Shown one piece after another: positions 984 to 21,832 of a stretch of DNA of 34,444 nucleotides. Numbering within the stretch: position 1 is the stretch's first letter; each line of letters starts with the position of its first letter. The notes beneath the pieces are model-generated. The model was not told the origin of the DNA, did not search any database, and saw only the letters and a program-made list of their open reading frames with translations. The position numbers and the translations under genes are program-made. This DNA comes from Verrucomicrobiales bacterium (GTDB lineage: Bacteria; Verrucomicrobiota; Verrucomicrobiia; Limisphaerales; UBA9464): contig JAEUHD010000083.1 in assembly GCA_016793645.1 (NCBI GenBank), forward strand, positions 1-34,444, read 5' to 3'.

Positions 984-2129
984 GTGCACGACAGTCTCTT
1001 TCAATTCGCCGCCGACCTCCGCGCCGCCTTGGGCGGCGGGTCGTCCGATCTACTCCGGAGTCCCGCGGCGGCTGGGGAGGATGCCTTCGGACGCTGGGCG
1101 CTGCGTCTTTGGCGTCTTCAGGTGGAGGGGAGTCGGGACCTGGCCCGGGACCTCGTCGGGCGCGGACTGGATCCGGACGAAATCCGGGACTGGAGAGGGA
1201 TTCCACCGATGCCGGCGGTTGCCTTCAAGGAGTTCGAACTTTCCAGCATTCCCCGGAAGCGACGGACGCGGGTATTCCACTCCAGCGGTACCACCGGGCA
1301 GACCCCGAGCCGCCATCATCACTGTCCGGAATCCCTGAAGGTCTACGAGGCCTCGCTGTGGCCCTGGTTCCGGCGGCATCTTCTTCCGGAGATGGAGGTC
1401 GGGCATGGCGGTGAGGCGCCCCGGGTGTTGTCCCTGACGCCGCCGGCGATTGCGGCGCCTCAATCCTCGCTGGCCTACATGCTCGACGTGATCGTTCGGG
1501 CCACGGCTTCGGACGTGGATGTCGGGACGCGTTTTTTTGGTGCCCTGGACCCCGAGGGATCCTGGCAGGTCGATGCAGGCCGGCTTTTGGACGTGCTCCA
1601 GGCCGCCACGGCCCTGGGGATCCGTGTGCTGCTGGCCGGAACGGCGTTCAACTTCGTGCACTTCATCGACCATTTGGACGGGATCGGACGCCGGCTTTCG
1701 CTGCCGGCGGGCTCCCGAATCATGGAAACCGGCGGATACAAGGGCCGATCACGGGTGCTGACCCGGCCCGAGTTGCACGCGGCATTAACCGAACGACTGG
1801 GGGTCGCTCCCGAGTGGATTGTTGGCGAATATGGCATGAGCGAGCTGAGTTCGCAGGCCTATGACACGATTGCCGGATCGGGAAGTGCACGGTGCCTGCG
1901 GTTCCCCCCGTGGGCGCGGGCCGTCGTGGTCTCGCCTGAGAATGGAAGGGAGGTTGGGGAAGGGGGGACAGGATTGGTCCGGATCCTCGACCTCGCCAAC
2001 GTATGGTCGGTGCTCTGCCTCCAGACTGCGGATCTGGCCGTGCGTCGCGGGGAGGGGTTCGATCTGGTGGGCCGGCTTCCGGGGGCTGAACCCCGGGGTT
2101 GTTCCCTGCAATCCGTCGGGGGACACTGA
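984..2129 (+). CDS. LuxE-like acyl-protein synthetase (AMP-forming fatty acid activation)
   Basis: The product is 381 residues from GTG at 984. Members of the LuxE family (PF04443) activate a fatty acid with ATP, hold it as an acyl-enzyme and pass it to the LuxC reductase. The visible family marks are an adenylate-forming loop 'HSSGTTGQTP' (glycines near residues 102-105), a following 'SLKVYEASLWPWF' segment, and 'GEYGMSELSSQ' from about residue 281, which matches the conserved LuxE block. It is four bases upstream of a LuxC-like gene, so the two are almost certainly co-transcribed. The start is uncertain: the frame is open further upstream, but that stretch is a repeat and then the antisense of the transposase; no Shine-Dalgarno sequence is present. 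The acyl chain and product are unknown. Related proteins are also annotated as acyl-protein synthetases in non-luminous bacteria. Confidence 0.85.
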   Translation: MHDSLFQFAADLRAALGGGSSDLLRSPAAAGEDAFGRWALRLWRLQVEGSRDLARDLVGRGLDPDEIRDWRGIPPMPAVAFKEFELSSIPRKRRTRVFHSSGTTGQTPSRHHHCPESLKVYEASLWPWFRRHLLPEMEVGHGGEAPRVLSLTPPAIAAPQSSLAYMLDVIVRATASDVDVGTRFFGALDPEGSWQVDAGRLLDVLQAATALGIRVLLAGTAFNFVHFIDHLDGIGRRLSLPAGSRIMETGGYKGRSRVLTRPELHAALTERLGVAPEWIVGEYGMSELSSQAYDTIAGSGSARCLRFPPWARAVVVSPENGREVGEGGTGLVRILDLANVWSVLCLQTADLAVRRGEGFDLVGRLPGAEPRGCSLQSVGGH

Positions 2130-2133
2130 CGCC

Positions 2134-3561
2134 ATGAACCTCCCGCACCTGTTTCTCGCGGACATGCCGCCCGAGGCGGTTCTGACCCCGGCGCTGATTC
2201 GCGACGCCTGCATTGCCGTGAAGCGCAATCGGGCGGCGTGGCTCCGGACGAGGCCCACCCAGGAGTTGGTGGAACTCCTCGCCTACTGCGGGGAGCGGTG
2301 GCTGACGCCGGAGAATGGATTCCGTCGCCTGGCGCTCGCGCATGGCGCCCGCGAACTCGGATTCAGTGCGGCGTCCATGGCCCGGGGACTCGACGGATTC
2401 TTTCGCCTGCTCACGGTGGAATCCCTGAACGGCCTGCTGACCCAGGATCTGGGGGATGCCCGTCGGATGGATGAATTTTGCGGGACCGCGGGTGAACTGC
2501 GCCAGGGACGCACGGCCCTGGCGCGTGGACCGGAGCTGATGGTTCACTTCGTGGCGGGAAACCTGCCGAACTCCGCGTTGACCTCCCTGGTCCTGGGCGT
2601 GCTGACGAAATCCGCGCAGTTCCTCAAGTTGTCGTCCCGGGGCGGAATCGTACCCCGGCTGCTGGCGCACTCCCTGGCCGATCTTGAGCCGAAGCTGGGA
2701 GGGTGCCTGGAGATGGCGTCCTGGCACGGCGGCACGCCGGATCTTGAGGAGGCGTTGCTGCATCAGGCGGACAGCGTGGTCGTCCAGGGCTCGGATGAAA
2801 CCGTATCTGCGGTTCGCGCGCGGGTTCCGTCCGGGGCCCGCCTGGTGTCCTACGGTCACCGGCTCAGTTTTGGATTTGTGGGGGCCGACGCGCTGTCCGG
2901 CTACGGCGCCCGCAAATCCGCGGCGCGTGCGGCTGCGGACATCGCCGCCTGGAACCAGCTGGGATGCCTGTCGCCCCACGTGTTGTATGTGGAGGAGCGG
3001 GGCTCGGTTTCGCCGGAGGGTTTTGCCGCGATGCTGGCCGAGGCACTGGCGGAACGGGAGGCGGCGGAGCCCCGTGGCGCGTTGTCCCCTGAGGAGTCCG
3101 GGGAAATTGCCAGTCGGCGGGCCCTGCATGAGGTCCGGGCCCGGCGCCATCTCGCGGAACGGGAGGGCGCCGAGACCGCCCCCCGCGGGCCGTTTTTCGA
3201 ACCTCCCGGCCAGGGGACCCAGGTTTGGACGAGCGAAGGATCGACGGCCTGGACGGTGGTGTATGAGGACGACCTGGGCTTCCGGGTCTCCTGCCTCAAC
3301 CGGTTTGTCTATGTGAAGCCGTGTGCCGATCTGCAGCGAGCCCTGCAGGCGGCGGAAGTGGTTCACGGCCGTGTCAGCACCGTGGGGATCGCGGCAAGCG
3401 AGGGGCGGATGCAGGAGCTGGCGCTCCTCCTCGCCCGATGGGGCGTGACGCGGGTATGTCCGCTCGGCCGCATGCAGGAACCTCCGCTGGCATGGCGCCA
3501 CGATGGACGGCCCGCGCTGGCGGACCTGGTTTCGTGGACCGACCTGGAACTCGGAAGCTGA
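2134..3561 (+). CDS. LuxC-like acyl-CoA reductase (NADPH-dependent fatty acyl reductase)
   Basis: The product is 475 residues and starts with ATG four bases after the luxE-like stop. LuxC-family enzymes (PF05893, aldehyde dehydrogenase fold) reduce an acyl thioester to a fatty aldehyde. The segment '[15 protein letters not shown]' places a cysteine at residue 278 in the position of the family's acyl-accepting cysteine. '[19 protein letters not shown]' (about residue 140) and '[17 protein letters not shown]' fit the nucleotide-binding half. A G-rich run GGGGGAC lies about 13 bases before the start and is one of the few possible ribosome binding sites in the window. With the upstream gene it would form a complete free-acid to aldehyde reductase. 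No LuxD thioesterase and no LuxA/B luciferase are in the window, so light production is not implied. Confidence 0.87.
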
Positions 3562-4060: not shown

Positions 4061-5377
4061 TCAGATGTACTCGTTGAAGATGGCCTCGAGGAGCTCCTGG
4101 CGGCCGCTCTCGAGATCCCGAACCTCACCCAGCGCAAGGGCGTGCCGTTCGCAATCGGCAAAGGTCGCCTTGCCCGCTTCAATCTTCGCGCCGATCCCCT
4201 CGTCCCAGCTCCGATAGCGGTTCTTGACGAAGGCATCGAGGCGACCGTCGGCCCGGACGCGGGCTGCGATCTTGAGGCCCCGGGCGAAGGTGTCCATGCC
4301 CGCGATGTGCGCGTAGAAAAGATCCTCCGGGGTGAAGCTTTCGCGGCGCACCTTGGCGTCGAAGTTGACGCCGCCCCGGGTGAACCCTCCGTACTTCAGG
4401 ACCGTGAGCATGGTCCTCGACGTCAGGTAGAGATCGGTGGGGAACTGGTCGGTGTCCCACCCGAGGAAGTAATCCCCCATGTTGGCATCGATCGACCCGA
4501 GGGCCCCGGCCGAGCCGGCGACCTCGAGTTCGTGCTCCATGGTATGTCCCGCCAGCCAGGCGTGGTTGACCTCGATGTTGAGCTGGAAGTGCTCGAGGAG
4601 GTCGTATTCGCGGAGGAAGTTGAGACACGCCGCCGCGTCGGAGTCGTACTGGTGGCGCGTCGGTTCCTTGGGCTTGGGTTCAATCCAGAAGGGGCCCTTG
4701 AATCCGATCTTCTTCTTGTAGGCCACCGCCATGTGCATGAACCGGGCGAGGTGATCCATCTCGCGCTTCAGGTCGGTGTTGATCAGGGAGGAGTAGCCCT
4801 CGCGGCCGCCCCAGAACACGTAGCCCTCGCCCCCGAGTTCGTGGGTCCACTCCAGCGCCTTCTTGACCTGGGCGGCGGCGAAGCAGAAGACGTCGGCACT
4901 GCAACTGGTGGCGGCGCCATGCATGTAGCGGGGATGGACGAAGTTCTGGGCCGTGCCCCACAACAGCCGGATGCCGGTGTCGTGTTGAAGCTTCTTCAGT
5001 TCACGTCCGACGGCATCCAGTTGCGTGTTGGCGTCCTTGAGGGACTTGCCGTGCGCGGCGAGGTCGCGGTCGTGGAAGGCGTAGAACGGGATGCCGAGCT
5101 TGCCGGCAAACTCGAAGAAGGCATGGGCCCTGGCGATGGCCTCCCGGGTATTGCATTCCCCGGTGTTCCAGGTCCGCCGGGCGGTCCCCCACCCGAACAT
5201 GTCGGCGCCGGTGCCGCGCATGGTGTGCCAGTAGACCGCGGCAAACCGGAGGTGGTCCCGCAGGGTCTTGCCTTCAACCACTTCGTCGGGATTGTAGTGC
5301 TTGAACGAGAGGGGGTCCTTGGAGTCAGGGCCTTCGAACCGGATGGTGCCGATTTTCGGAAAGAATTGCTTCGCCAT
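4061..5377 (-). CDS. xylA: Xylose isomerase
   Basis: The product is 438 residues, the usual length of class II xylose isomerases. It interconverts D-xylose and D-xylulose (and glucose and fructose) with two divalent metals in a cytoplasmic TIM-barrel tetramer. The N-terminus '[18 protein letters not shown]', the catalytic-histidine segment 'FYAFHDRDL', '[18 protein letters not shown]', '[14 protein letters not shown]' and the metal-binding '[17 protein letters not shown]' and '[19 protein letters not shown]' are all intact. It is the last gene of the minus-strand carbohydrate group, 60 bases after the exported isomerase-like gene. No xylulokinase or xylose transporter is in view. The start codon is preceded by a pyrimidine-rich stretch with no Shine-Dalgarno sequence. 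Confidence 0.97.
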
Positions 5378-5437
5378 ACAAGGTAAAGGGGCGGGAACGC
5401 TAAGGGAGCCCGTGGGGACGGGGAAGGATGAATTCGA

Positions 5438-6523
5438 TCAGGCTCGGGTGCCGAGGCCGACGACATTCCGCAGGTAGTCCAGGCTTCGGGCAAGTTCGGT
5501 TTCCTGGCGCTGGCGATCATTGAGTCCATCGGCGGGAACGGGCTTGCCACGCTTGGCCAGCGCCAGGAAGCGGGCGAACTCCGCGCCGGATTTGTTGGGA
5601 AACGCGGTCCAGAACTCGGCCTCCAGGTAGGGGAACTCGACCGCGAACCCGCCGATCGTCTCCACGTTGACCGCGACCCCGGGGCACAGCTGCCCGAACC
5701 GTTCGAAGTACTTCTTCTGATCCACACAGCCGCCGTCGCCCATGGCGGTCCACTGCACCTTGCACCCCTTCTCGGTCTCCCAGATGGCGGAGTCGCGGAG
5801 GCTGGTGGCCACGGCGTAGGGCCCCAGTTTCTCGAGGGAATCCATGGGGTCCTCCAGCGTCCAGGCCGCATTGCCGGAATCCAAGTTGACCCCCACGAAG
5901 TCGCGTCCCGCCGCCTCCACGAGGCGGATGAGTTCCAGCGCCGTCATGTCGCCGGCGTGATTTTCCACGGCAATCTTCACGCCCGAATCGAGGGCCTGGG
6001 ATTTCCGGGATTTCAGGACGGCGACGGTGTCGGCAATGCGAGCGTCGATGCCGCCCGGGGTCCTTCGATCCTCCCGGCTGCCCAGCACCACGCGGAACAC
6101 GGGGGAACCGGCGGCCTGCGCCAGCCGGATTCCGAGGGAGAGGTGTTCCTCCGCCGTTCCCCAGTCCTTCTTGAACGTCTTGGAGGTGGGGCAGATGCTC
6201 CAGGATCCGAGCAGGAGGCCAAGGCCATGGTCCGCGGCGTACTTCCTGAGGTCGGAGGCGTTGTCGGTGGTGAGGGAACCCAGGGCGGGGAGGTCGGTGA
6301 TGAACAGCGTGTCGAGTCGGAGCTTTGCGGCATAGTCCACCAGGTCCCGGCCCTTCAATCCGAGGGCGCGGACCGCGAAATTGTCCATCCCGAGCCGGAT
6401 GGGTTTTCCATTCTTGTCGAGGAGCCTCGGTGCCGGGCTTTCAGCGGCGGTCAGGCGGGTGGCGGAGGCCGAGGCCAGGAGGGCGGCGGTGGTCGAGCGG
6501 GCGAGGAATTCGCGGCGATTCAT
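5438..6523 (-). CDS. Exported sugar phosphate isomerase/epimerase-like TIM-barrel protein
   Basis: The product is 361 residues from ATG at 6523. The start 'MNRREFLARSTTAALLASA' is a twin-arginine-type signal (RREFL followed by a hydrophobic stretch and an Ala-rich cleavage region), so the folded protein is probably exported by Tat. The mature part fits the xylose isomerase-like/AP endonuclease 2 TIM barrel (PF01261): 'VKIAVENHAGDM' and 'VGVNLDSGNAAW' carry acidic metal ligands, and 'VNVETIGGF' near the end supplies another. Such proteins are abundant in Verrucomicrobia and Planctomycetes and many act on oxidised or phosphorylated sugars, but the substrate cannot be read from sequence. It lies directly upstream of xylA, and the two may be co-transcribed. 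A longer frame starting at 6583 would hide the signal peptide and is not used. Confidence 0.85.
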   Translation of the reverse strand: MNRREFLARSTTAALLASASATRLTAAESPAPRLLDKNGKPIRLGMDNFAVRALGLKGRDLVDYAAKLRLDTLFITDLPALGSLTTDNASDLRKYAADHGLGLLLGSWSICPTSKTFKKDWGTAEEHLSLGIRLAQAAGSPVFRVVLGSREDRRTPGGIDARIADTVAVLKSRKSQALDSGVKIAVENHAGDMTALELIRLVEAAGRDFVGVNLDSGNAAWTLEDPMDSLEKLGPYAVATSLRDSAIWETEKGCKVQWTAMGDGGCVDQKKYFERFGQLCPGVAVNVETIGGFAVEFPYLEAEFWTAFPNKSGAEFARFLALAKRGKPVPADGLNDRQRQETELARSLDYLRNVVGLGTRA

Positions 6524-6637
6524 AGGTGACGCGGTGGGGAGAATCCCGTCTCCCCTTCGAAACATCAAAGCCGAAATCCCCATGGGGTGCGGGGGGGGAC
6601 GGCTCCTGCCGACCCGGTGGCTTCGCGCGCAGCAGGG

Positions 6638-15977: not shown

Positions 15978-18185
15978 CTATACGGATGTCTCCGGTTCAA
16001 AGGGTGGGGAGATACTTCTGATCATCCCCGCCATTCCGGGCAAAACGGAATCTGCGGGGGAGTGTGGCCCAATATGGGCGACGGCCAGCACGGACTCCGC
16101 CTGCGCCGGGTCGTTCAGGCAAAGGACGCCGGATCGGATCTTCGGGATGGGCTCGCCCCCGAGCACCAACGGAAATTGCTGCGCCAGCAGGGTCGCGTAG
16201 GGCAGGAATCCGGGGCATCCGGCGGCCGTGGCGGTCGCCTGGGAGAGCAGGCGGAACACACCGGCACATCCCGGTGCCGCCTGGCGCAGGATTTCCAGGG
16301 TCACCCGGCCCATGGTGAAGCGGGGATTGATCTCCACGATCGGCTTCAGGCGGCAGCGTCCGTCGGAACTCCGATAGACAAAGGCATCCACCCCGAGCGG
16401 ACCTGAATGTCCCAGGGATCGAAGCCTTGGCTCGAGCTGTTCTGCGAGGACGGCGTAGAGGCGTCCGATGCGTCCATTGAGAGCGCCCGGCTCCGGCAGG
16501 AGGCGAAGCACCTCCTCGGGCGGCTTGCGATGGTGCTTTGGACCGGCCCAGTTCGCCCGGAATCGACCGGCGTCATCATTGAGGAGGCCGGTGAATCCGA
16601 TCAGTCGGAGTCCCTGGGGTCCGAGTTCCATCTGGACGGAAAAGTCCACCCGCCGGTCCAGCCACGGTTCAACGACCACCCCGTGTCCGAGGGCCAGGGC
16701 ACGACGCAACCAGCGTCGCTGAGCATCCGTGGGGGCGTCGTCGGCGAGGCGCAGCACGTTGCGCCCGGCGAGTCCGAAGGGTTCCTTGATGACGATGCGC
16801 GGGTACCCGGTTTCGCGGAGTTGTTCGCGTCGTTTGAGGACCTCCTCCTCGGATCCAACGACCGAACCCACCACCTCGGTGGGACACAACCAATCGTCCC
16901 GGGCGACCCCCGGGGAAACTTCCCGGGCGATGGTGTCCCATTCCCGAAGAAACTCCTTCAGGAATGCCGCGCTCCACGCCTTGGAATACAGGTCGCCTCG
17001 ACGGGGATCAAAGGCGGCGGGACATCCCTTGGCGGGGCCCGTCAACTGGGGATGCAAGGGAGCCAGCAGCTCCGCGCTGTCCGGAGACCAGGCCCACGGT
17101 CGGAAGCTCCCGATCTTCCGTTCCAGGAGCGGATCTCCGGGACGGAGCCGTCCGTGTTCGAGCATCACGAACTCGGGGAGGGCAAAACCCGCATCCTTGA
17201 TCGAGCTGAGAAACGCAACGGAAGGCGGGCGCTCCACCAGGACCACATCGTCCTGGCGGGCGAGAAACTGGGGCAGGTTGGAAAGGTCCCGCGCAAGTTG
17301 TGCGGCGGGACCGGAAGGTACGAAGCCGGGGCCACGGCCGACGAATTCCTCGGCGAACGGATTGAAGACAAAGATCCCCGGGGTCCGGCCCTTGGACGCG
17401 CTATGGACGTTGAGGTTGGCGATGAATCCGGAATCCAGACCCGCCGCGCGTCGGCCCTCCGCGTTGAAACCAATCCCCCGCGCCCGGGTGGGCGACAAGG
17501 GGAACCGGAGTTGGCGACAGAAGGCGTCCCAATCGTTGTCCCGGGGATCCTTCCAACGCCGGAACCATTTGAGGCCATGGGCCACGTGCGCGATTTCGTC
17601 CCGATAGATTCCGTCCAGCAACCGGGCCGTTTCCGCATCGCCAGCTTCGGTGAACCGATGGGCGAAGTGCCGGCAGAAGTCGAGGTTGGCCTGTTCAAAG
17701 GTCAGGCTGAGACTCGTGACGAAGTCCAGAGGGGACGCCATGGGCGACACGACACGCCAGAAGTAGCCGCTGACCGGGAGTTCCCCGAACTCGATGCCGC
17801 AGTCGCGCATCCGCCGGAGGTACATGCGGGTGTGTTCCTGTTCATCCCGAAGGGTCTGGGCCACGCCGCGGCGGAAGGCGGGCGGGGCATCGGGGAACCG
17901 CAGGAGCACGAGGGCCATGAGTTCCGTGGCGAGAAGTTCGTGGTTGCAGAAGAAGTGGAGCAGGCGTCCACGCTCGCGATCCTCGTGGAGCCGGTGGTCC
18001 GGCGGAACTTCGCTTCCCGCTCCGGTCCCGGTGGGTTTGAAGGCCAGTCCGTTCGGACGTCCGGGTGCCCCCGGAGTCGAAAGCGCAGGCCCCGGCCTTT
18101 CATCCGTGAGTGTCCCCGGGCAGTGAAGCTTCTCCTCCAGCGTCCGGGCAAACAGCACCGATTCAGCGAAATCCCGCAGTTCCAT
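15978..18185 (-). CDS. DUF455 ferritin-like domain fused to ATP-grasp domain
   Basis: The product is 735 residues with two parts. Residues 1 to about 245 match the DUF455 ferritin-like family: 'ELRDFAESVLFARTLEEKL', then four-helix segments with the expected metal-ligand acids and histidines, Glu83/Glu88 in 'HELLATELM', Glu115/His118 in 'DEQEHTRMY', Glu164 in 'FEQANLDF' and Glu197/His200 in 'YRDEIAHVAHGL'. Residues about 250-735 form an ATP-grasp enzyme: 'PRIVIKEPFGLAGRNVLRL' carries the ATP-binding Lys467 and the glycine loop, 'GHGVVVEPWLD' follows, and 'VEINPRFTMGR' (Glu618, Asn620) supplies magnesium ligands. ATP-grasp enzymes join a carboxylate to an amine or other nucleophile through an acyl phosphate. 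The diiron part would oxidise or hydroxylate something, so the protein may make and modify one small molecule. Substrate unknown. Convergent with the GH15-like gene. Confidence 0.85.
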   Translation of the reverse strand: MELRDFAESVLFARTLEEKLHCPGTLTDERPGPALSTPGAPGRPNGLAFKPTGTGAGSEVPPDHRLHEDRERGRLLHFFCNHELLATELMALVLLRFPDAPPAFRRGVAQTLRDEQEHTRMYLRRMRDCGIEFGELPVSGYFWRVVSPMASPLDFVTSLSLTFEQANLDFCRHFAHRFTEAGDAETARLLDGIYRDEIAHVAHGLKWFRRWKDPRDNDWDAFCRQLRFPLSPTRARGIGFNAEGRRAAGLDSGFIANLNVHSASKGRTPGIFVFNPFAEEFVGRGPGFVPSGPAAQLARDLSNLPQFLARQDDVVLVERPPSVAFLSSIKDAGFALPEFVMLEHGRLRPGDPLLERKIGSFRPWAWSPDSAELLAPLHPQLTGPAKGCPAAFDPRRGDLYSKAWSAAFLKEFLREWDTIAREVSPGVARDDWLCPTEVVGSVVGSEEEVLKRREQLRETGYPRIVIKEPFGLAGRNVLRLADDAPTDAQRRWLRRALALGHGVVVEPWLDRRVDFSVQMELGPQGLRLIGFTGLLNDDAGRFRANWAGPKHHRKPPEEVLRLLPEPGALNGRIGRLYAVLAEQLEPRLRSLGHSGPLGVDAFVYRSSDGRCRLKPIVEINPRFTMGRVTLEILRQAAPGCAGVFRLLSQATATAAGCPGFLPYATLLAQQFPLVLGGEPIPKIRSGVLCLNDPAQAESVLAVAHIGPHSPADSVLPGMAGMIRSISPPFEPETSV

Positions 18186-18308: not shown

Positions 18309-18384
18309 CCCATGCCCCCCATCCCCTTTCCCTTCCCAACAAACCCCTTTGCACGATCCCCGGTTGGCCCGCATGATGGATCCC

Positions 18385-18900
18385 ATGCGGAAACGCCGTG
18401 AGGCTCGGGAACGGGCCATCCAGTTCCTGTTTCAATGTGACTTGAATCCGCCGGAGGATCTCCCGGCGGCGTTGAACCAATTCTGGGATTCCCATCGGCT
18501 GCATCTGCAGCAGGATCGGAATCCGGGTCCGACCTGGGGTCAGCCGGTGGAGGTGCCGCCGCCGGGCGCCGAGGAAATGGGCATGCGGCTGTTTGCCGAC
18601 GGACTGATCCAGGGGGCCCTGGAGCATAAGGTTGAGGCGGACGACGTGATCCAGAAATTCACCAAGAACTGGGAATTGCACCGGATTGCCGCCGTGGACC
18701 GCACGATCCTGCGACTCGCCATCTACGAGATGATGCATCGCGAGGACATTCCGCCCGTGGTCAGCATCAACGAGGCGGTGGACCTGGCGAAGAAGTTCTC
18801 GACCGAGCAGAGTGGCAAGTTTGTGAACGGGATCCTGGACAAGGTGAAGTCCAGCATCCTCCGGCCGGCTCGCACTGCCAAGGCGGCGTCGGAAGCCTGA
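18385..18900 (+). CDS. nusB: Transcription antitermination factor NusB
   Basis: The product is 171 residues from ATG at 18385 (other in-frame starts at 18373, 18376 and TTG 18349 add up to 12 residues). NusB binds boxA RNA with S10/NusE in rRNA antitermination. 'RREARERAIQFLFQCDL' is the arginine-rich RNA-binding helix. 'DRTILRLAIYEMMHREDIPPVV', 'SINEAVDLAKKFS' and 'SGKFVNGILDKVKSSI' are the conserved core. Compared with about 140 residues in E. coli, there is an insertion of roughly 25 residues between the second and third helices ('DSHRLHLQQDRNPGPTWGQP'), probably a flexible loop. It is the first gene of a plus-strand housekeeping run. Confidence 0.93.
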   Translation: MRKRREARERAIQFLFQCDLNPPEDLPAALNQFWDSHRLHLQQDRNPGPTWGQPVEVPPPGAEEMGMRLFADGLIQGALEHKVEADDVIQKFTKNWELHRIAAVDRTILRLAIYEMMHREDIPPVVSINEAVDLAKKFSTEQSGKFVNGILDKVKSSILRPARTAKAASEA

Positions 18901-18936
18901 GGGCCCGGCAACCGCTGAATTCCGATCGACGACCCC

Positions 18937-19767
18937 ATGGTGGCCGACCTGCATCTTCACACCTTCTTTTCGGATGGCACCTATTCCCCCGAGGAGTTGG
19001 CCGGGCATGCGGCGGCGCAGGCGCTGTCGGCCGTGGCCCTGACGGATCATGATTCGGTGGAAGGCTGTCCCCGCATGGCGGCCGCCTGTGCGGCGCGCGG
19101 TATTGAATTCATCCCCGGTGCGGAACTGACCGCGGAGCTGAACGGACGGGAGTTCCACATCCTGGGCTACTGGATGGATGTCCGGTCGCCCCTGCTTCAG
19201 GAACGTCTCACCGGGTTCCAGGCGGCGCGTCGGCAGCGCATCGTGGAAATGGTGGAACGACTGAACCGCCGTGGCGTGGCCCTGCGTGCGGAGCAGGTGT
19301 TTGAACTTTCCAATTGCTCCGCGCCCGGGCGTCCCCACGTCGCCCGGGCCCTGGTCGCGGCGGGATGCTGCTCCAGCTACGATGACGCCTTCGACCGGTA
19401 TCTGAAGAAGGGGCGGCCCGGCTGGGTTCCCAAGGCGGCGATGCCGGCGGCACCGACCATCGAGTTGATCCACGCGGCGGGGGGCGTTGCCGTCCTGGCG
19501 CACCCGGGCCTTTACCGTGCGGACGAGATGATTCCCACGCTGGCGGCGGCCGGATTGGATGGACTTGAGTGCTGGCACACCCGGCATTCCGTGACGTCCT
19601 CGGAGAGCTACGCCCGCGTTGCGGAGCGTCTGGGGTTGGTGCCGACCGGGGGCAGTGATTGCCACGGGATGGCCAAGGGGGAGCCGCTCATCGGGCGGAT
19701 CCGGCTTCCCTATGACCGGGTCACCGCATTGAAGTCGCGGTGTCCGGCATCCGCAGTCGCCGCCTGA
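18937..19767 (+). CDS. PHP-domain phosphoesterase (RNase AM / nucleoside bisphosphate phosphatase type)
   Basis: The product is 276 residues. The PHP active site is complete: 'DLHLHTFFSDGTYSPEE' (His6, His8, Asp13), 'TDHDSVEG' (Asp37, His38, Asp39), 'PGAELTAE' (Glu63), 'REFHILGY' (His74), 'GRPHVARAL', 'VLAHPGLYR' and 'TGGSDCHG'. This arrangement is that of the YciV/TrpH group, which uses three metals to trim short RNAs or hydrolyse 3',5'-nucleoside bisphosphates. Some members were earlier called TrpH. It lies 36 bases after nusB and 19 before ftsY, so the three are probably one transcript. No Shine-Dalgarno sequence is seen. Confidence 0.9.
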   Translation: MVADLHLHTFFSDGTYSPEELAGHAAAQALSAVALTDHDSVEGCPRMAAACAARGIEFIPGAELTAELNGREFHILGYWMDVRSPLLQERLTGFQAARRQRIVEMVERLNRRGVALRAEQVFELSNCSAPGRPHVARALVAAGCCSSYDDAFDRYLKKGRPGWVPKAAMPAAPTIELIHAAGGVAVLAHPGLYRADEMIPTLAAAGLDGLECWHTRHSVTSSESYARVAERLGLVPTGGSDCHGMAKGEPLIGRIRLPYDRVTALKSRCPASAVAA

Positions 19768-19786
19768 AACCCTGATCCAAAGTTCC

Positions 19787-20701
19787 GTGGGATTCTTCGA
19801 CAAACTCAAGTCCGCCTTCAGCCGCACGACGGCGACCCTGTCGCACGAGATCAAGCGCATCGTCACCCGCTCACCGCGATTGACGGCGGAGAACCTGGAG
19901 GAGCTCGAGGCGGCCCTGTTGCGTGCGGACCTGGGGTTTGCCATGACGCAGCAGATTCTCGGCGCGGCCCGGACCGCGTTTGAGACGCAGGGGAAGTCCG
20001 GGATGGATTTCATCGGGATCGCCGCCTCCGAGGTGACCCGGGCGCTGGGCGAGTCCACGGGCGGACTGACCGCCCGTCCGGAAGGCCTCACCGTGGTGTC
20101 CGTCGTGGGCGTGAACGGCACGGGCAAGACCACCACCTGTGCGAAGCTGGCGTCCCTCATGCAGCAGCGGGGGGAGCCGGCCTTGTTGGCGGCCTGTGAC
20201 ACCTTTCGCGCGGCGGCGACGGAGCAGCTGAAGCTCTGGGGCGGGCGATTGAACGTCCCGGTCATCGCGGGTGCGGATCAGGCGGATCCCGCCTCGGTGG
20301 CCCATGACGCCGTGAGCGCGGGATTGTCCCGGGGCGCCCGGTGGCTGTTTGTGGACACGGCGGGCCGGCTGCACACCAAGAACAACCTGATGGCGGAATT
20401 GCAGAAGGTGCACCGCGTGATGGGCAAGCGACTGCCGGGGGCGCCGCATGAAGTGCTGCTGGTTCTGGACGGCTCGACGGGATTGAACGCGTTGAACCAG
20501 GCGCGGGAGTTTCACAAGTCGGTCACGTTGACCGGACTGGTGATCACCAAGCTCGACGGCACCAGCAAGGGGGGCGCGGTGGTGGCCATCCAGAGGGAGT
20601 TGGGGATTCCCGTGAAGTTTATCGGGGTCGGGGAGCAGCCGGAGGATCTCCAGGCCTTCAATGCCCGGGAGTTCGCCGATGCCCTGTTTGAGGCGAGGTA
20701 G
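19787..20701 (+). CDS. ftsY: Signal recognition particle receptor FtsY
   Basis: The product is 304 residues from GTG at 19787. It is the membrane-associated SRP GTPase that docks ribosome-SRP complexes at the translocon. The helical N domain ('LTAENLEELEAALLRADLG') precedes the G domain with P-loop 'GVNGTGKTTTCAKLA' (108-115), 'DTFRAAATEQL', 'DTAGRLHTKNNLM' and the guanine-binding 'TKLDGTSKGG'. 'GVGEQPEDLQAFNAREFADALF' closes the protein as in other FtsY proteins. The acidic A domain of E. coli FtsY is absent; only a short amphipathic leader 'GFFDKLKSAFSR' remains, as in many other bacteria. The ribD gene starts 3 bases after the stop. Confidence 0.96.
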   Translation: MGFFDKLKSAFSRTTATLSHEIKRIVTRSPRLTAENLEELEAALLRADLGFAMTQQILGAARTAFETQGKSGMDFIGIAASEVTRALGESTGGLTARPEGLTVVSVVGVNGTGKTTTCAKLASLMQQRGEPALLAACDTFRAAATEQLKLWGGRLNVPVIAGADQADPASVAHDAVSAGLSRGARWLFVDTAGRLHTKNNLMAELQKVHRVMGKRLPGAPHEVLLVLDGSTGLNALNQAREFHKSVTLTGLVITKLDGTSKGGAVVAIQRELGIPVKFIGVGEQPEDLQAFNAREFADALFEAR

Positions 20702-20704
20702 TGT

Positions 20705-21832
20705 GTGACCGACGTGTCCTGCATGCGGCGGGCCCTGGCGCTGGCCCGGAGGGCGTTGGGTGAAACCTCGCCAAACCCCATGGTCGGGGCCGTGCTCGTG
20801 CGGGGGGGGAGAATCCTGGGCGAGGGATGGCATCACCGGGCGGGAGGGGCGCATGCGGAAATCGAGGCGATGCGGGACGCGGAGCAGCGGGGGGAACGAA
20901 TCCGGGGGGCGACCCTGTACGTCACCCTGGAACCGTGTTCAACCCAGGGCCGGACCCCCCCCTGCACGGAGGCAATCCTGCGCCGTGGCATTCGAAAGGT
21001 GGTCGTCGCGGCCTCGGATCCGAATCCGAAGCATGCCGGCCGGGGATTCCAACTCCTCCGGGACCAGGGAGTCGAGGTGGTGGAGGGGATCCTCGCGGAG
21101 GACGCCACCCGGTTGAACGGGGGATTCAATCACTGGATTCAAACCGGGCGCCCGCTCGTCACCCTGAAGGTGGCGATGAGCCTTGATGGACGGATCGCGA
21201 CCGAGACCGGGGAGTCGAAGTGGCTGACCGGACCCCGGGCCCGAGCCCGGGTCCAGGGCCTGCGCCGGGCCCACGACGCCATCCTGGTCGGGATTGGAAC
21301 CGTGTTGGCGGATGATCCATCGCTCACCCTGCGGGAGCCTGGTCGGTCCGGATGCCGGCTCCGGGTCATTCTCGATACGCGCGCCCGGATTCCGGCCGGA
21401 TCGAAGGTGCTGACCGACGCCTTCCGGGACCGGACGGTGGTGGTGGTCGGGCGCGGGGCTCCGGCGCGCCGATTAAAGGAGCTCGCACGCCACGTGGACG
21501 TCTGGGTGGCACCCCTGCGCCGGGGAAGGGTTTCGCTGCCGTGGTTGATCCGCCGCCTGGGGCATCGCGAGGTGACCAGCCTGCTGGTGGAGGGCGGTGG
21601 GGAGGTGCATGCGACGTTCCTCCGGGAGCGCCTCGCCCATCGGGTGGCCCTGTTTTACGCGCCGAAGATTCTCCTGGGATGGAACGCCCCACGGGCCGTC
21701 GGCGGGGTGGGATTCGGTTCCCGCGCCTCCATGCCGGAACTGGACGACCTGAAGTGGACCCGTGTCGGGCTGGATTTGCTGTTGGAGGCCCGCATTGCCT
21801 ATCCTTCCCCCCGTCCGCGGGGTGGCGGGTGA
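20705..21832 (+). CDS. ribD: Bifunctional riboflavin deaminase/reductase RibD
   Basis: The product is 375 residues from GTG at 20705. The N-terminal deaminase (about 1-145) has the zinc site His50-Ala-Glu52 in 'GGAHAEIEAM' and Cys78/Cys87 in 'LEPCSTQGRTPPC'. The C-terminal reductase (about 147-366) starts with 'VTLKVAMSLDGRIAT' and includes 'LLVEGGGEVHATFL'. Together they convert the pyrimidine intermediate made from GTP by cyclohydrolase II to 5-amino-6-ribitylamino-uracil phosphate. The start follows ftsY almost directly, and ribE follows after 22 bases. No FMN riboswitch precedes it: the upstream sequence is ftsY coding sequence. Confidence 0.95.
   Translation: MTDVSCMRRALALARRALGETSPNPMVGAVLVRGGRILGEGWHHRAGGAHAEIEAMRDAEQRGERIRGATLYVTLEPCSTQGRTPPCTEAILRRGIRKVVVAASDPNPKHAGRGFQLLRDQGVEVVEGILAEDATRLNGGFNHWIQTGRPLVTLKVAMSLDGRIATETGESKWLTGPRARARVQGLRRAHDAILVGIGTVLADDPSLTLREPGRSGCRLRVILDTRARIPAGSKVLTDAFRDRTVVVVGRGAPARRLKELARHVDVWVAPLRRGRVSLPWLIRRLGHREVTSLLVEGGGEVHATFLRERLAHRVALFYAPKILLGWNAPRAVGGVGFGSRASMPELDDLKWTRVGLDLLLEARIAYPSPRPRGGG

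Follow-up and report, generated by a model that had tools for sequence, protein, structure and literature searches.

DUF455 (PF04305, COG2833) is a widespread ferritin-like family of unknown function, best known in stand-alone form. The N-terminal domain of the protein described here (residues 1-262) belongs to it by profile match, with all diiron ligands kept, and is fused to, or in other genomes paired with, an ATP-grasp ligase; this partner with a peptide-ligase fold makes DUF455 a testable enzyme. For the C-terminal domain, the best fold match is PGM1 (3wvq/3wvr), the pheganomycin peptide ligase, which sits in an antibiotic cluster (PMC8939145). Unlike our protein, PGM1 has no diiron domain, and no such cluster surrounds the present gene. 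LdmS (SAOUHSC_02373, 7r8p), an L-aspartate--L-methionine ligase, and BesA (8yi6) also share the fold; both are single-domain ligases with 14-16% sequence identity to the protein. Comparable logic is found in predicted systems that join an ATP-grasp peptide ligase to haem-oxygenase-type diiron or cupin oxygenases (PMC2922099): there too, a peptide ligase is combined with a helical diiron oxygenase whose substrate is an amino acid or peptide. In those systems, however, the diiron protein is haem-oxygenase-like and not ferritin-like, the genes are separate, and the operons are larger, with cupin and Rieske partners. On the oxygenase side, MiaE and the cyanobacterial aldehyde-deformylating oxygenase (ADO) have the ferritin-like diiron fold in common with DUF455 (about 185 residues of ADO aligned, Z about 14), but they have no sequence family link to it, act on other substrates and lack a ligase partner.

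In the literature searched, outside which most subscription journals lie, we found no description of a DUF455 and ATP-grasp pair or fusion; queries for COG2833, PF04305 and ATP-grasp with ferritin-like returned nothing useful. The accessible portions of the literature mentioning DUF455 yielded no published function. A first-pass annotation of this DNA had recognised no characterised protein with the arrangement, and our search likewise found no characterised homologue carrying both domains. Both kinds of domain are thus known, while the pair and the fusion appear to be undescribed.

We use "window" for the whole 34,444-nucleotide stretch of DNA analysed. The single two-domain protein announced by the first-pass annotation is indeed encoded there by one open reading frame on the minus strand (Table 1). 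On the plus strand a stop interrupts the corresponding frame, and the antisense frames overlapping the gene are of the kind freely produced by a 65% GC genome. Differences from the nearest homologue (65% identity) are distributed as 187/166/369 over codon positions 1/2/3 in 711 codons, which indicates purifying selection in the frame of the fusion gene. It is apparently its own transcription unit, with nusB diverging about 160 bp upstream. The diverging housekeeping row comprises nusB, a PHP phosphoesterase (nucleoside bisphosphate phosphatase-like), ftsY and ribD (18349-21832, plus strand).

Table 1 Features of the fusion gene in the window.
Feature	Position	Strand	Basis
Whole gene, DUF455-ATP-grasp fusion, 735 aa	15978..18185	minus	ATG 18185, stop 15978
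N-terminal DUF455 / ferritin-like domain, residues 1-262	17400..18185	minus	Pfam match 40-255, fold
Predicted diiron ligands E83, E115, H118, E164, E197, H200 (and conserved E88)	17586..17939	minus	Conservation
C-terminal ATP-grasp domain, residues about 265-715	16041..17393	minus	Model alignment to PGM1
ATP-grasp catalytic residues K467, E506-P507, D600, E618, N620, R622	16320..16787	minus	Conservation

The Pfam DUF455 profile matches the protein at 153.3 bits, where the cut-off is 34.3 (E=1.1e-44). Modelled alone (pLDDT 94.1, pTM 0.92), this domain folds into four long helices (69-96, 102-128, 152-180 and 184-211), a bundle with the two E/ExxH half-sites typical of ferritin-like proteins: E83 with E115-H118, and E164 with E197-H200. 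The metal-binding pattern proposed in the first-pass annotation is found at these positions and is invariant: each of the six residues is kept in 139-140 of 139-140 scored DUF455 sequences, a set that includes three unpaired sequences, from plasmid records. H82, N167, D169 and W207 of the bundle are conserved as well, as is E88. When residues 67-214 of the model are aligned with residues 2-144 of E. coli bacterioferritin (4cvr), the offset implies that E83, E164, E197 and H200 correspond to E18, E94, E127 and H130, a mapping by offset and not by coordinates. In bacterioferritin these four residues are metal ligands.

Comparison with solved folds placed a Dps-like protein, an aldehyde-deformylating oxygenase and bacterioferritin side by side, all at Z about 14. 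Since the scores hardly separate aldehyde-deformylating oxygenases from Dps and the storage ferritins, the fold leaves the chemistry of DUF455 unfixed: in the model the ferritin-like fold is clear, and fold scores do not discriminate its sub-family. Foldseek matches were weak and broad (best E 0.06). A sequence search of solved structures returned no DUF455 relative with a significant match, and the MiaE profile is absent among the Pfam and NCBIfam matches of the protein, so that its likeness to MiaE is one of fold only.

The C-terminal half gives no ATP-grasp profile match above cut-off in Pfam or NCBIfam; it matches DUF3182 with no better than E=0.04. Homologues show weak ATP-grasp_3 matches, and one (L041) scores above cut-off for DUF3182. 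Against the LdmS model (NF047900), L055 gives E=3.5e-5 and the best homologue reaches 22.7 bits where the equivalog cut-off is 475 bits; the window protein itself does not match that model and is not assigned to LdmS. The ligase-family profile matches 7r8p weakly (E=0.005). As the superfamily is not defined by a profile match, we base the assignment on the fold and the active site. In the full-length AlphaFold model built with 33 sequences (pLDDT 90.7, pTM 0.89), residues 269-719 superpose on PGM1 (3wvr) with Z 27.3 and 3.1 A over 375 residues (16% identity), followed by a Streptomyces ligase (8ynd, Z 24.9), BesA (23.8) and LdmS (22.9). Ranks 1-7 all belong to the PGM1/BesA/LdmS peptide-ligase group (Z 22.6-27.3), and PurK comes next at 19.2; by its matches to PGM1 and to PurK, GAR synthetase and biotin carboxylase (Z 15-19), the model has the ATP-grasp fold with its pre-ATP-grasp domain. 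On the evidence of the model, the C-terminal half has the peptide or amino-acid ligase fold of the PGM1/BesA/LdmS group.

The active site is conserved accordingly, with a lysine for ATP and acidic and asparagine Mg ligands in place. K467 is lysine in 136 and arginine in 2 of 138 sequences, D600 and R622 are kept in 139 of 139, E618 is glutamate in 130 and aspartate in 9, and N620 is kept in 138 of 139. Of Lys467 and Glu618-Ile-Asn620, named in the first-pass annotation, K467, E618 and N620 are nearly invariant among the homologues examined, and D600 and R622 are so as well.

Among the window's relatives, a full-length match occurs in 30 of 58 genomes (its own included) and pieces in 7 more. 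Most of the 37 named-record loci, chiefly from Verrucomicrobiota and Latescibacterota, hold the fusion, a few being ligase-only, split or partial. Fusions are present in 21 of 64 Latescibacterota genomes; in a phylum with records labelled Proteobacteria, 40 of 58 genomes match, most of them fused. One MAG record labelled Gemmatimonas phototrophica (L035) has a DUF455 domain identical to that of L142 in the Latescibacterota set, and its title or bin looks wrong.

We drew even samples from the phyla of L057 (labelled Planctomycetota) and L051 (labelled Myxococcales). The planctomycete sample gave 6 "fused", 21 adjacent, 8 apart, 4 DUF455-only and 3 ligase-only genomes, of which the "fused" G266 has a stop between the domains and is really two adjacent genes, and G333, whose DUF455 is cut by a contig end, was reclassed as adjacent. 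The myxococcal sample gave 18 fused, 24 adjacent, 14 apart, 2 DUF455-only and no ligase-only genomes, with L177, L180 and L194 counted as adjacent and proving on closer reading to be one open frame. L057, a candidate for a single odd fused frame, turned out to be two overlapping genes. The specificity of the profile is seen in the planctomycete sample, where 104 of the 149 genomes show no match whatever. The view of one odd fusion protein thus gives way to that of a broader unit, encoded by two separate genes, adjacent or far apart, in most members of both samples.

The two domains co-occur far beyond chance outside fused genomes, even where the genes are separated. Of 143 unfused Planctomycetota genomes, 33 have DUF455, 32 the ligase and 29 both (P=1e-22), and of 95 unfused Myxococcota genomes, 40 have DUF455, 38 the ligase and 38 both (P=1.6e-24), these P values being nominal hypergeometric ones that treat genomes as independent and ignore shared ancestry. 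Adjacent pairs stand in the 4-bp stop/start register in 24 of 41 cases, 11 of them with ATG (ATGA, as in L057), against a chance expectation that we estimate at roughly 25%; since a start arises in this register wherever a TGA stop follows A, G or T, the overlap alone is weak evidence. In a quick-method tree of 122 DUF455 domains, most fused forms fall in one 61-row set (SH-aLRT 96), separate fusions (L177/L180, L194) are nested among unfused myxococcal pairs, and the fewest fusion-state changes number four. If the two domains share a reaction, they should fuse repeatedly, overlap as genes and be retained even when separated, and all three are seen: whether fused, adjacent or merely co-occurring, DUF455 and the ATP-grasp ligase are kept as a unit in near-obligate pairing.

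The ligase is kept without DUF455 in three loci (L053, L055 and L077). Ligase-only cases in Bacteroidota include Mangrovibacterium (L055), in whose genome DUF455 was not found. Parabacteroides distasonis, a strict anaerobe, carries the ligase as well (its genome lay outside the DUF455 search). The ligase gene at L053 9869-11416 belongs to the Latescibacterota genome G253 and lies behind an amidohydrolase-like gene, in a locus with several neighbour genes in common with fused Latescibacterota loci. This genome lacks both DUF455 and COX1, and the DUF455 half appears to have been lost there.

If DUF455 uses O2, its carriers should be aerobes, for which we took COX1 as a haem-copper oxidase marker. 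Of 36 planctomycete genomes with the pair, 35 had COX1, against 116 of all 149 in the sample (P=4e-4); among Latescibacterota the figures were 21 of 21 fused genomes and 46 of all 64 (P=1.7e-4). Phylogeny and genome size both confound this association. G587 is a counter-case, with COX1 and a ligase piece only, possibly fragmentary. Among the window's relatives all but one have COX1, fusion or not; being near-universal, the marker is uninformative there.

No third partner gene or biosynthetic cluster is conserved in the 37 named-record, 40 planctomycete and 40 myxococcal loci. Their neighbours are lineage-local only, and none of these genes names a pathway. The pair spans four named phyla or more, besides one with an uncertain name, and in some families most genomes have it; it also stands by itself. 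This breadth and self-sufficiency suggest a generally useful metabolite or modification, not a strain-specific natural product. Taken together, the data point to a widespread aerobic two-step reaction, apparently undescribed.

We propose, as the reading that on balance we hold to be probable, a self-contained two-domain unit: its ligase would couple a carboxylate with an amine, and its diiron domain would oxidise the substrate or the product. The ATP-grasp domain would bind Mg-ATP through K467, E506, D600, E618, N620 and R622, activate the carboxylate, presumably as an acyl phosphate, and then join it to the amine. In DUF455, E83, E115, H118, E164, E197 and H200 are predicted to hold two metal ions, probably iron, with which the bundle may oxidise a substrate or product shared with the ligase, using O2 or H2O2. 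Our guess is that ligation comes first, because the ligase survives alone and DUF455 of this branch is rare without it; the reverse order is conceivable. The first-pass suggestion of an oxidase-like diiron domain working beside a ligase gains from the completeness of both domains, their retention as a unit, the peptide-ligase fold and the conserved diiron site, and its oxidising half is kept here as a conditional one. More tentatively, and with rather less confidence than in the unit itself, we suggest that DUF455 and ATP-grasp form an undescribed phylum-crossing pathway of two steps that needs no other dedicated genes: an amide-linked small molecule would be made and oxidised. In aerobic members of Verrucomicrobiota, Planctomycetota, Myxococcota, Latescibacterota and other groups, the product might serve as a signal, an antioxidant or a peptide-like cofactor.

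DUF455 might instead reduce peroxide or handle iron, as erythrin- or Dps-like proteins do, and work with or protect an antioxidant peptide that the ATP-grasp half produces. Dps, bacterioferritin and rubrerythrin are among its structural matches, the carrier genomes are aerobic, and a peroxiredoxin gene directly precedes stand-alone alphaproteobacterial DUF455 in Sinorhizobium and Sphingomonas (L074 5183-6495, L076 4426-5702), the genes overlapping in Sphingomonas. These DUF455 proteins, however, form a distant branch (about 30% identity), unpaired on the records seen; peroxiredoxin never recurs beside paired forms in the loci examined, and the conserved H82, N167, D169 and W207 look more like those of a substrate-acting enzyme. 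We regard this explanation as unlikely, though the best placed of the alternatives.

Somewhat less likely again is a role in macromolecule modification: the ATP-grasp domain would add an amino acid to a tRNA base or protein terminus, like RimK, and DUF455 would hydroxylate, like MiaE. As a housekeeping modification predicts, the pair is not accompanied by genes for transport or a pathway; conservation extends across a whole family, and the MiaE-type hydroxylase 2itb is found among the ferritin-like matches of the Foldseek search. Yet MiaE is unremarkable among those matches, the nearest ATP-grasp folds are small-molecule and peptide ligases, and the nusB/ftsY/ribD flank of the window is not a conserved neighbourhood of the fusion.

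We think it improbable that the domains are linked only physically, DUF455 serving to regulate the ligase, as a sensor of O2 or iron, or to make it oligomerise. The three loci with ATP-grasp alone do indicate that the ligase can act without DUF455. Against this reading, about 140 sequences retain every one of the six metal ligands as well as several residues nearby, and the genomes with the genes apart keep both, non-adjacent. A false join of two unrelated genes through a frameshift or assembly error, the artefact against which the first-pass annotation had cautioned, is practically ruled out by more than 60 open fused frames of this architecture from many separate assemblies (with records labelled Verrucomicrobiae bacterium DG1235, Coraliomargarita and Roseibacillus among the carriers), set against a single in-frame stop within the matched stretch in 2 of the first 20 homologues.

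We rejected a defence or phage origin (no PADLOC match, no meaningful PHROG match). The LuxC-type acyl-CoA reductase of the window (1861-3561, plus strand; Pfam E=1.8e-62, but well short of the cut-off for the NCBIfam LuxC equivalog) lies 13 kb away and was discarded as a partner, being unlinked in homologues. The window also encodes a xylose isomerase (NCBIfam equivalog, above cut-off) beside a second xylose-isomerase-like TIM barrel (4061-6583, minus strand).

Several local associations were recorded. A TauE-type exporter precedes four verrucomicrobial fusion genes, and a gene for a kelch/cadherin-like protein lies behind Latescibacterota fusion genes. In one myxococcal clade (L157, L160, L162, L164, L170), a 5'-deoxyadenosine deaminase gene is found 3-27 bp upstream of stand-alone DUF455; the L162 neighbour matches NF005557 with 565 bits against a cut-off of 522. 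A link of this adjacency to the salvage of radical-SAM by-products is possible.

Finally, a separate DUF455-like bundle family of about 440-540 aa, distinct from the fusion family, is represented by L072 1399-2721 (minus strand) and also found in G001-G003, G075, G117, G145, G148 and G179. Several genomes from the window's class carry it, and it is present in the window's own genus. The L072 gene lies between creatininase-like and phytanoyl-CoA-dioxygenase-like genes, as read from their translations.
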